From NCBI GenBank assembly GCA_030950085.1, contig JAUZRW010000165.1, positions 1-33,201 on the forward strand: a DNA stretch of 33,201 nucleotides. Reading direction: 5' to 3'. The position numbers and the translations under genes were made by a program. Under the pieces are notes generated by a model. That model saw only the letters and a program-made list of their open reading frames with translations, had not been told where the DNA came from and made no database searches. The stretch's first letter is position 1; every line of letters begins with the position of its first letter. Source of the DNA: Anaerolineae bacterium (lineage in GTDB: Bacteria; Chloroflexota; Anaerolineae; Aggregatilineales; Phototrophicaceae). Shown here piece by piece: positions 22,350 through 25,943 of the stretch.

Positions 22350-22389
22350 AGTTTATTTTTATTCCAATTTAGAACGAAGGAAAGACGTA

Positions 22390-22977
22390 ATGCCTTACAT
22401 CAAGCAAGTCGAAGACCACGAGGCGACAGGTGCGGCAAAGCGCGAACTCGATAAGGCATATAAACGTGCCGGACGTGTCTGGAATATCGTGCGAATCATG
22501 ACACCCAACCCTGAAACATTACGCACCTCTATGAATATGTATATGACCATCATGTATGGCGAATCGCCCCTCAGCCGCGCTCAACGCGAGATGTTGGCAA
22601 CTGTCGTCAGCAAAAATAATCATTGCGTTTATTGAACTCGCGCCCACGCACATGACCTCCGTGCTGAGGTTAATTGGTTTGAAACAGAATTAGACGCTGA
22701 CCGTTACGTTAATGCAATTGCCGATGATTGGCACACATCATCCCTCAGCGATGTTGACCGCGCCTTGTGTGCGTATGCTGAAAAAATAACAGTTCACCCT
22801 AAAGCAATGACTGCCGAAGATGTGCAAATTTTGCGTGATTGTGGCTTGTCTGATACAGCTATACATGATGCTGCACAAATCATTGCTTACTTCAATTATA
22901 TCAATCGCGTGGCGGATGCACTCGGCATTGAAAACGAAACATTCGTCCGCGAGTGGGGTGAACTCGATTTAGCTTAG
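22390..22977 (+). CDS. Candidate selenoprotein: carboxymuconolactone decarboxylase/AhpD-like peroxidase-related protein (UGA = Sec82)
   Basis: The reading frame is 195 codons with a single in-frame TGA at 22633-22635, and homology continues on both sides. Residues 1-81 match the start of CMD/AhpD-like peroxidase-related proteins (D-H-E-A-T-G, P-L-S-R-A-Q-R-E-M). The motif is E67...C79-V-Y-U82-T-R-A-H86, exactly the spacing of the AhpD proton-relay set E118/C130/C133/H137, with TGA in place of the second Cys codon. A 7-bp hairpin at 22653-22672 follows the TGA. The likely role is thiol/selenol-based reduction of peroxides in the cytoplasm; the reductant is unknown. GAAGGA lies ~8 nt before the ATG. 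It may share a transcript with murA. An ordinary nonsense mutation or base error is the alternative, but the codon's position and the hairpin argue against it. No sel genes are in the window. Confidence 0.78.
22653..22672 (+). promoter_or_regulatory. Candidate bacterial SECIS hairpin
   Basis: UGACCUC (22653-22659) pairs with GAGGUUA (22666-22672) in 7 bp, including one G-U. The loop CGUGCU (22660-22665) has G at its second position. The loop begins 25 nt after the last base of the TGA. These features meet the published bacterial SECIS rules as I know them (a short stem, G among the first two loop bases, 16-37 nt spacing). It lies inside the coding frame, as bacterial SECIS elements do. Confidence 0.7.
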
Positions 22978-22989
22978 TGTAGGAAAAAC

Positions 22990-23052
22990 CTCTCCATCAG
23001 ACATAATATAATTTTGTGTGAGGCGCAGTGAAACCCCGAAAGGGGCTTTTAT
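22990..23052 (+). repeat. Dispersed element C, copy 2 (3' half) with terminator
   Basis: The last ~40 nt (GTGTGAGGCGCAGTGAAA-CCCC-GAAA-GGGG-CTTTTAT, 23016-23052) are nearly identical to 19528-19564. The 5' half diverges from the other copies. It directly follows the Sec-candidate gene and probably terminates its transcript. The minus-strand version could also terminate the convergent dehydrogenase-like gene. Confidence 0.65.
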
Positions 23053-24403: not shown

Positions 24404-24889
24404 CTATTTTATTTTTGCTGCAATGTAGTCAGGACACAGTTCTTGAATCGTGATATTTGCATCTTCTAGCTTGTCTCTTGACTTTTCCCAATCTGTATCG
24501 GTAGCATTGATAATCAGAGCAGGGGGTTCAAAATGAAGTGCTACTGCAATGAATTTTCTATCAGACGGGTCATCCATAATATTATCCAGCAAGATTGCAT
24601 GACCGTTCTCATCATATTCGACTTCGGTAAACACAATACGGGTCATCGGTTGCGATAGAATGTCGTTTAGATAGCGTTCAGCTAATCCGCCTTTTTTGAT
24701 TTGCCCATGATATTCAGTCAAAATCTTAAACGCCATATCTACAGCGATTTTGTACTCATCTTCTCCCTGACGAAAGGCTTGAAACCACTCAATACAGGCT
24801 TTGATACAATCGGCTTCTATCTGGTCTTTTGGCGGAATCTTATCGACACTTGCCCACACATTGGTATCGACGACCTCAATTCTTACCAT
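24404..24889 (-). CDS. PIN-like domain protein (probable nuclease) paired with upstream ATPase
   Basis: The 161-aa protein begins V-E-V-V-D8-T-N-V-W-A, the PIN first strand with its catalytic Asp. E59 (I-L-T-E-Y), D110 (D-P-S-D-R-K-F-I-A-V-A) and D131/D133 (N-A-T-D-T-D-W) fit the remaining acidic residues of the metal site. PIN proteins are usually Mg2+/Mn2+ RNases (VapC and relatives). It overlaps the end of the ATPase gene by 14 nt, so the two are translationally coupled. It is unusual in that the partner is an SMC/OLD-like ATPase rather than a small DNA-binding antitoxin. Assignment rests on motif reading only; the insert between D8 and E59 is long for VapC. Confidence 0.65.
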   Translation of the reverse strand: MVRIEVVDTNVWASVDKIPPKDQIEADCIKACIEWFQAFRQGEDEYKIAVDMAFKILTEYHGQIKKGGLAERYLNDILSQPMTRIVFTEVEYDENGHAILLDNIMDDPSDRKFIAVALHFEPPALIINATDTDWEKSRDKLEDANITIQELCPDYIAAKIK

Positions 24890-25943
24890 TCAGTGACCTT
24901 TTGAGGGCTGCCATCGTCATTGCTTCTAAATCACCTGTGATGTCCCCAAAGAATTTATCGGGCCAATTCTGAATTTGTCCGTATTCATCGACACCAACCG
25001 ATTGAATAGTCGAGCCATTGTCGCCCATATCACAGAAATACATTTTGATATTATCAGGATTCGCAAATTCATGGTCTTCTTCCGCGATACGTCGTTGTAA
25101 GCGTCGCAATAAATGTTCGCTATGGCTTTCGACAATCAGTTGTAATTTGCGCTCTTGGGCAACATGCAGCATCAAATCAGCTAAGTGTGCCTGTGCGCGA
25201 GGATGCAGATGCAATTCGGGCTGTTCGAGTAGAACAATTGAGTGTCTAGGAGCAAAATATAATAGCGTAATGACTGGTAAAACCTGTGATATACCAAATC
25301 CAACATCTAGCAGATTGCTTATTGCATTGCCAATTTCAACTTGTGTTTCGTAAAACCGATTATCTTTGTCCAACGGATTAACTTTGAATCCACCTACTAA
25401 CCCAGATTTGATTAACCATTTTGATACATTATCCAATAGTTGATTATCCCTGCGAGTAGATTCAATAAGTGCCGCGATTGTGTTTTCTCCATCTGGCTCA
25501 ATTGTATATGGCGCTACGCCTGACCACAGATAACTACGCTTAGGATATAATCGTAGAGGTCCCAAATAATGATAACTAAGAATACCGTCGTCATTAATTG
25601 TGAATGTATTTATACCTTCGTCAACACTATATTCAACATCATTTTTCGCTTGCCACATTCTTAAATCGAAACTAGGTTCAATATTTATTCTTACGGTATT
25701 TTCCAGATTATGCTCAAATACCATCTCACGAAAACCACCAACATCTGTAAAGTCTGATGCTGTTCCCCCAAAGTTTATGGCAAGCCATCGCGTCTTAATA
25801 ATAGTCTGCCAAATGAGCAAAATTGATTGCAATATACTCGACTTGCCAGAGCTATTCGTCCCAAAAAGCAGCGTCAAGGGAGCCATTTCAATATCGAGCG
25901 CTTGCCAGCTTTTGAAGTTTTCTAGTTTCATGCGTGTGAACAT
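24876..25943 (-). CDS. AAA family ATPase with DUF3696-type C terminus
   Basis: This 355-aa protein has the ABC/SMC-like ATPase core of the OLD-type group. It opens F-T-R-M-K-L-E-N-F-K-S-W, then Walker A G28-T-N-S-S-G-K34-S35. Walker B comes with S-I-V-L-L-E-Q-P-E-L-H-L-H-P, and the H-loop with E-S-H-S-E-H-L-L-R-R-L. The tail D-E-Y-G-Q-I-Q-N-W-P-D-K-F-F-G-D matches the DUF3696 signature. Such ATPases bind or move on DNA and are often paired with nucleases in defence modules. Here the partner is the overlapping PIN-like gene downstream. A TGG-TACAAT extended -10 lies at 25983-25991 (minus). The unit is isolated by a terminator from ilvD. No TOPRIM nuclease domain is present, so it is not a full OLD nuclease. 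Confidence 0.85.
   Translation of the reverse strand: MFTRMKLENFKSWQALDIEMAPLTLLFGTNSSGKSSILQSILLIWQTIIKTRWLAINFGGTASDFTDVGGFREMVFEHNLENTVRINIEPSFDLRMWQAKNDVEYSVDEGINTFTINDDGILSYHYLGPLRLYPKRSYLWSGVAPYTIEPDGENTIAALIESTRRDNQLLDNVSKWLIKSGLVGGFKVNPLDKDNRFYETQVEIGNAISNLLDVGFGISQVLPVITLLYFAPRHSIVLLEQPELHLHPRAQAHLADLMLHVAQERKLQLIVESHSEHLLRRLQRRIAEEDHEFANPDNIKMYFCDMGDNGSTIQSVGVDEYGQIQNWPDKFFGDITGDLEAMTMAALKRSLNGKN

Follow-up and report, generated by a model that had tools for sequence, protein, structure and literature searches.

A conserved hairpin, most probably a bSECIS, just past the in-frame UGA of an AhpD-like CxxU selenoprotein gene from an Anaerolineae bacterium

The winged-helix domains of known SelB proteins are the part that binds SECIS RNA, and the SECIS element of E. 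coli fdhF has a bulged U. The limits of a general bSECIS model, which concern (i) loop size and sequence, (ii) length of the upper stem, (iii) spacing from the UGA, and (iv) folding energy, are given in the legend to Fig. 2 of PMC13188914. A table of the same 2026 review lists an "AhpD-like protein, TIGR01926, CxxU", attributed there to its ref. 59 and exemplified by MCB9421940.1, and AhpD-like CxxU selenoproteins also appear in PMC1088965 and PMC2398784. Covariance models of bSECIS elements have been built for Epsilonproteobacteria (PMC4607533). A search of one literature library returned nothing closer on Chloroflexi or TIGR01926 selenoproteins, or on bSECIS covariation. Since both AhpD-like CxxU selenoproteins and bSECIS elements were already in the literature, the selenoprotein and signal described here are newly found cases of two known kinds.

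The window, the whole 33,201-nucleotide stretch of Anaerolineae DNA analyzed here, carries an AhpD-like gene with an in-frame UGA (Table 1). A standard ORF list cuts this gene into two short ORFs, 22390-22635 and 22765-22977, so that a redox selenoenzyme of this kind is easily overlooked. The full-length product scores 152.2 bits against TIGR01926, "peroxidase-related enzyme" (cut-off 81.8), and also matches Pfam CMD. Its UGA substitutes for the second Cys of a CxxC motif, and the protein shares with the AhpD-like CxxU entry tabulated in PMC13188914 both the NCBIfam subfamily and the CxxU motif. The closest solved relative by sequence is the AhpD structure 6k40, whose CVYC aligns to the CVYU of the window protein. 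NF041238 (AhpD_rel_CFYUT) and NF053654 (GroundWater_YciW), two NCBIfam (seleno)protein models, describe related AhpD-type families to which the window protein does not belong, as it falls well below both cut-offs (84.1 vs 175 bits and 25.9 vs 310 bits, respectively). The frame stays open for 113 codons past the UGA, and comparison of 55 of these codons with seven relatives gives 29-40 third-position vs 8-15 second-position differences, which indicates that coding conservation continues beyond the UGA.

Table 1. Positions of the gene, its redox motif, and the elements of the hairpin in the window.
Feature	Position	Strand	Basis
Shine-Dalgarno-like AAGGAAAG ahead of the ATG (putative)	22377..22384	+	by-eye reading
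Selenoprotein gene, AhpD-like/peroxidase-related enzyme, 195 residues, Sec at residue 82	22390..22977	+	translation through the UGA
Redox motif codons C79-V-Y-U82 (TGC GTT TAT TGA)	22624..22635	+	CxxC at the same place in Cys homologues
In-frame UGA, almost certainly the Sec codon	22633..22635	+	codon conserved as TGA; Sec machinery in the genome
Hairpin 5' arm UGACCUC	22653..22659	+	folding, comparison of relatives
Apical loop CGUGCU, second base G then U, 24 nt from the UGA	22660..22665	+	CG[U/G] start in 65/65 subfamily members
Hairpin 3' arm GAGGUUA	22666..22672	+	folding, covariation with the 5' arm

The upstream neighbor of the gene is murA, and the downstream neighbor, on the opposite strand, is a glycerol-1-phosphate-dehydrogenase-like gene that scores far below the cut-off of that model. 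Past the gene end, CCCC-GAAA-GGGG-CTTTT at 23034-23050 (plus strand) is by eye a possible terminator, which is absent from the list of a pattern scanner. Farther along, at 24404-25943 (minus strand), an AAA_15/AAA_21 ATPase with DUF3696 adjoins a small protein without a family match; the ATPase bears a weak similarity, far below the cut-off, to the MAD3 defence ATPase.

The genome that contains the window (5.09 Mb, 266 contigs, 97.03% complete) encodes the full set of tRNA-Sec, SelA, SelB, and SelD by which Sec decoding is recognized. The tRNA-Sec scores 64.7 bits against a gathering threshold of 47 and is likewise called tRNA-SeC by ARAGORN, while SelA, SelB, and SelD lie above their cut-offs with 571.8, 369.6, and 366.1 bits, respectively. 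SelB includes the Pfam domains SelB-wing_2 and SelB-wing_3.

Relatives of the window protein were collected by protein searches, which gave matches in 33/101 near-relative genomes, in 24/400 genomes of the phylum at a stricter threshold, and in 91/396 genomes of the class, plus 16 named loci. A short fragment in genome G039 and a degenerate match in G638 were left out of the fetched stretches. The resulting 183 loci, all but one of which (L075) could be placed at the Sec codon, correspond to 178 distinct homologues. Among these, 142 have TGA at the Sec codon position and 36 have Cys, Ser, or Ala codons, proportions that are not those of the whole family because the homologues were collected by similarity to the window protein. 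The window's subfamily, defined by a D-L-R-x-E motif after Sec, comprises 65 collected members, including named Planctomycetota and Candidatus Actinomarina loci, and the codon is UGA in every one of them. Around this UGA, the named locus L042 ("Anaerolineae bacterium") has a sequence identical to that of L016, which comes from a genome of the window's own family. The in-frame UGA of the window gene is almost certainly read as selenocysteine.

An initial annotation of the window had placed a UGACCUC/GAGGUUA stem with a CGUGCU loop 17 nt after the UGA, and the hairpin was found exactly so; the loop does start at +25, and its second base is G. Of the seven stem pairs, one is G-U (22654-22671). 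Both 22633-22672 and 22633-22680, the latter being the segment that had been put forward for folding, have this stem as their minimum-energy and centroid structure. The six inner pairs form with probabilities of 0.55-0.98 over five folding contexts. A competing GCAC/GUGC pairing, described in the annotation as shorter, reaches only 0.02-0.12, with -4.2 vs -8.0 kcal/mol for the stem.

This hairpin resembles the bSECIS of PMC13188914 in its in-frame place after a Sec UGA, its G then U, and its dimensions: the 6-nt loop lies within the 3-9 nt of the model, which calls for G in the first two positions, the 7-bp stem within 4-16 bp, and the 24-nt spacing within the 16-37 nt allowed from UGA to loop. 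Its energy is borderline relative to the model limit of -7.5 kcal/mol or lower, at -8.0 with dangling ends and -7.2 without. It differs from the model in having its own primary sequence (consensus GACCUC-CGKGCY-GAGGUC) and in lacking an Rfam match: a scan of the window at gathering thresholds did not detect the hairpin, and a permissive scan of 22560-22760, taken to E 10, produced no family match on its strand. The hairpin also lacks the bulged U of E. coli fdhF.

Taken from the window sequence alone, the hairpin is weak evidence, and its strength comes from comparison. In our own implementation of the published bSECIS model, a bSECIS-like hairpin follows 65 of the 1456 TGA triplets on the two strands of the window and is also found in 254/2000 synonymous recodings of the hairpin stretch; the identical 7-bp stem at the identical place occurs in 76/2000. 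The fold z-score is unremarkable (48 nt, -0.45; 40 nt, -1.12). The annotation had taken the hairpin as an independent signal in favor of recoding; recoding is supported by the machinery, the conserved UGA, and a covarying stem, but the hairpin is not a strong signal within the window itself.

Codon use in the Sec relatives is constrained where the stem lies. The four inner pairs together with the loop G[G/U] are present in 35/35 Sec orthologues, against 2.29 expected from synonymous recoding. In these orthologues Glu at codon +11 is invariably GAG, and Leu at codon +8 is encoded by CTC in 31 orthologues and by CTT in 4. For Arg at codon +9, CGT (20) and CGG (15) are used but never CGC, although most of the gene's other conserved Arg sites have CGC more often than any other Arg codon. 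Outside the hairpin, the same amino acids show freer codon use within the gene. Mean excess codon identity in the 35 orthologues is +0.27 in the eight conserved hairpin columns and +0.04 in the 73 others (Mann-Whitney p 9e-5, an indicative value in which the relatedness of the sequences is not removed).

The stem also covaries, a check that the annotation had proposed for UGA orthologues. In an alignment of 31 distinct rows, 94.9% of cells pair, and the covariation score of 0.189 is reached by 0/500 shuffles and exceeds those of all six slid versions. The loop-closing pairs +22/+33, +23/+32, and +24/+31 are intact in all 65 subfamily members. The adjoining +21/+34 pair is formed in 63/65 (C-G in 51, U-A in 12), without mismatch except in the two bulged members, L129 and L130, whose helix is maintained via a bulged U. 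Of the outer pairs, +20/+35 is present in 55 of the 65, +19/+36 in 59, and +18/+37 in 56; because these three vary, RNAalifold recovers only the four inner pairs from the 35 orthologues. Within +18..+38 after the UGA, L129 and L130 have Cys (TGT) in place of Val inside the hairpin, and the stem survives by bulging one U.

The +21/+34 coupling links the third base of the Asp codon to the first base of a Val/Ala or Ile/Thr codon five codons downstream. As the two positions, the bulged members aside, pair either as C-G or as U-A, the Asp codon tracks the Val/Ile/Thr codon five codons on. On the subfamily tree each position changes five times, always jointly. Independent changes amount to five pairs on the best tree and to three when only well-supported branches are counted, always the same way; with three well-supported pairs, the number is too small for a sign test (p 0.25). 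A Fisher test gives p 4e-13 on the raw 63 members, with relatedness ignored, and a control at the same codon offset elsewhere in these genes found no coupling (411 cases, p 0.31).

Among the rival explanations, the one that survives best grants that the UGA is recoded as Sec and holds that another structure, longer or overlapping, directs SelB, with the invariant nucleotides serving that structure. Local folds do compete in 8/35 orthologues (L015, L019, L029, L047-L050, and L051), all of which give the core stem a probability of less than 0.5 when 48 nt are folded; for L029, the competing pairing rises to 0.79. Dominance of another structure, which the annotation had named as refuting, is not seen in the window fold; in these eight, 48-nt folding does not favor the stem. 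The strict bSECIS energy limit is failed by 8/35 orthologues. A small GCG/CGC hairpin upstream is also seen in the window fold, and other clades of the family have hairpins in different places. Against these points, covariation and codon constraint fall exactly on the 22653-22659/22666-22672 pairs and the loop. The GCAC/GUGC pairing shows no covariation: 463/500 shuffles pair at least as well, and its pair +15/+27 (alignment columns 18/30) is unpaired in 17/31 distinct rows. A different directing structure is therefore very unlikely.

Even less probable is that coding constraint alone accounts for the hairpin, H-D-L-R-A-E-V happening to yield it, and that the UGA is a sequencing error or a nonsense mutation of one genome. 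Some bSECIS-like hairpin does arise in an appreciable share of the synonymous recodings given above, but the UGA is common to the 65 subfamily members with conservation running on past it, third codon positions are fixed where stem pairing requires it and vary in the rest of the gene, and the conserved UGA and the 63/63 coupling of +21 with +34 contradict this account. The non-Sec homologues speak against it as well. Cys homologues with D/E-L-R mostly use CTG/TTG codons, and the kept Leu-Arg is encoded by CTCCGT/CTCCGG in 0/18 non-Sec homologues vs 61/65 Sec subfamily members. The window's stem is found in 0/36 Cys/Ser/Ala homologues; natural selection preserves it in the Sec genes, and the Cys homologues lack it. 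The initial annotation had named the retention of the stem by Cys homologues for coding reasons as an outcome that would overturn its reading, and the 0/36 and 0/18 counts show the opposite.

An intrinsic terminator after a genuine stop codon is scarcely credible: a pattern scanner does list the hairpin as terminator-like (2 found vs 1.1 expected by chance in the region), but the next bases, ATTGGTTTGA, are not a proper U-run and are not U-rich in relatives, the frame runs on under coding constraint, and the conserved downstream frame implies a transcript crossing 22672. Genome-wide reassignment of UGA, for example to Trp, would explain a frame open through a UGA and is equally remote, given that the other window genes are closed frames under table 11, that homologues have Cys at the UGA position, and that the genome has the full Sec machinery. 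Termination, pure coding constraint, nonsense mutation, and reassignment were accordingly rejected on frame, covariation, homologue, and machinery evidence.

The hairpin is best explained, with a probability of about 95%, as a bSECIS located in the coding sequence just past the UGA of an AhpD-like (TIGR01926) CxxU redox selenoprotein. Judging from sequence, the C-terminal winged-helix part of the genome's SelB would hold the stem-loop, mainly via the loop G then U/G and the closing stem, and would bring Sec-tRNA(Sec) to the ribosome as the UGA enters the A site. Selenocysteine would become residue 82 of the C79-x-x-U82 motif, after which the ribosome would melt the hairpin and read it as D-L-R-A-E-V. 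Reduction of peroxides or disulfides via the Cys-Sec pair is the probable activity of the enzyme, as it is in AhpD with Cys-Cys. The conserved hairpin provides a firm criterion for finding the gene in other Chloroflexota, Planctomycetota, and Actinomarina genomes.

The generic bSECIS model separates Sec from non-Sec homologues imperfectly, and position-specific tests were used for this reason. Without dangles it finds a hairpin in 43/67 Sec vs 3/18 non-Sec homologues, and with dangles 4/18 of the latter are positive. With relaxed settings (loop [N]G[G/U], -5 kcal/mol), a hairpin is found in 110/142 Sec vs 5/36 non-Sec homologues. The Cys homologue L156 (G576:C153:9065-9589) has a hairpin identical in 18/18 letters to that of its Sec neighbors L133 and L142, while the next 45 bases differ at 16-19 places. 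This hairpin is a clade-specific one, different from the window's, and the L156 genome retains tRNA-Sec. L156 appears to have changed recently from Sec to Cys and to have kept its bSECIS as a relic, although its Cys codon may be a sequencing error.

Sec homologues outside the window's subfamily have hairpins at other places, with the loop G at +18 to +20 or at +30. In a 17-member set, ACGGAG/ACGGGG pairs mostly with CUCCGU/CUCCGC at +22..+27 around a loop G at +18, and five of the six pairs are formed in 17/17 members. In another set (seven counted, L098 having been dropped as unrelated), CGGAGC pairs with GCUCCG and the loop G is at +19. In the clade of L058, a paralogue from the window genome, CUYCGUC pairs downwards with compensatory changes and the loop G is at +30. 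In sister clade B, the bSECIS model accepts only 9/17 members, and 10/19 have a bulge at +36. A FastTree phylogeny of the family, which has several long branches and was built after masking 14 residues beginning at the Sec site, groups the window's subfamily with support 96 (its 65 members plus four further Sec rows nested among them). Most of the +18 and +30 members are united there with only moderate support (84).

CTCCGT is shared among Sec clades; no non-Sec homologue with a retained Leu-Arg has it. A tentative reading is that, within one family, the UGA codon stayed fixed while the bSECIS moved by partner switching around a retained arm instead of being built afresh. The Sec-specific CUCCGU (Leu-Arg, +22..+27) would serve as the 3' arm of the hairpin in one clade (ACGGAG-loop-CUCCGU, with the loop G at +18), as the 5' arm in its sister clade (CUCCGUC-AGUU-GAC.., with the loop G at +30), and as both stem and loop in the window's clade, where the loop G is at +26. 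For the divergent Sec homologues L178, L181, L182, L185, L170, L177, and L176, mostly with the motif UTESH, no consistent G[G/U]-loop hairpin was found, and their SECIS may be of another type. Across related clades, and between two paralogues of a single genome, hairpins at several positions serve one UGA, which makes the family well suited to studying which features SelB recognizes and over what distance a bSECIS can shift.

The paralogue L058 (P0002, G000:C76:1366-1905) is a second TIGR01926 CxxU selenoprotein gene of the window genome, 41% identical to the first. It has the UGA at the same codon and differs in its bSECIS-like hairpin, which lies four bases further downstream than the window's and has a tetraloop AGUU at +29..+32. 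The SelD gene of the genome (L011, G000:C189:10782-11735) itself carries one in-frame TGA, followed by a bSECIS-like hairpin of -8.1 kcal/mol with its loop at +34.
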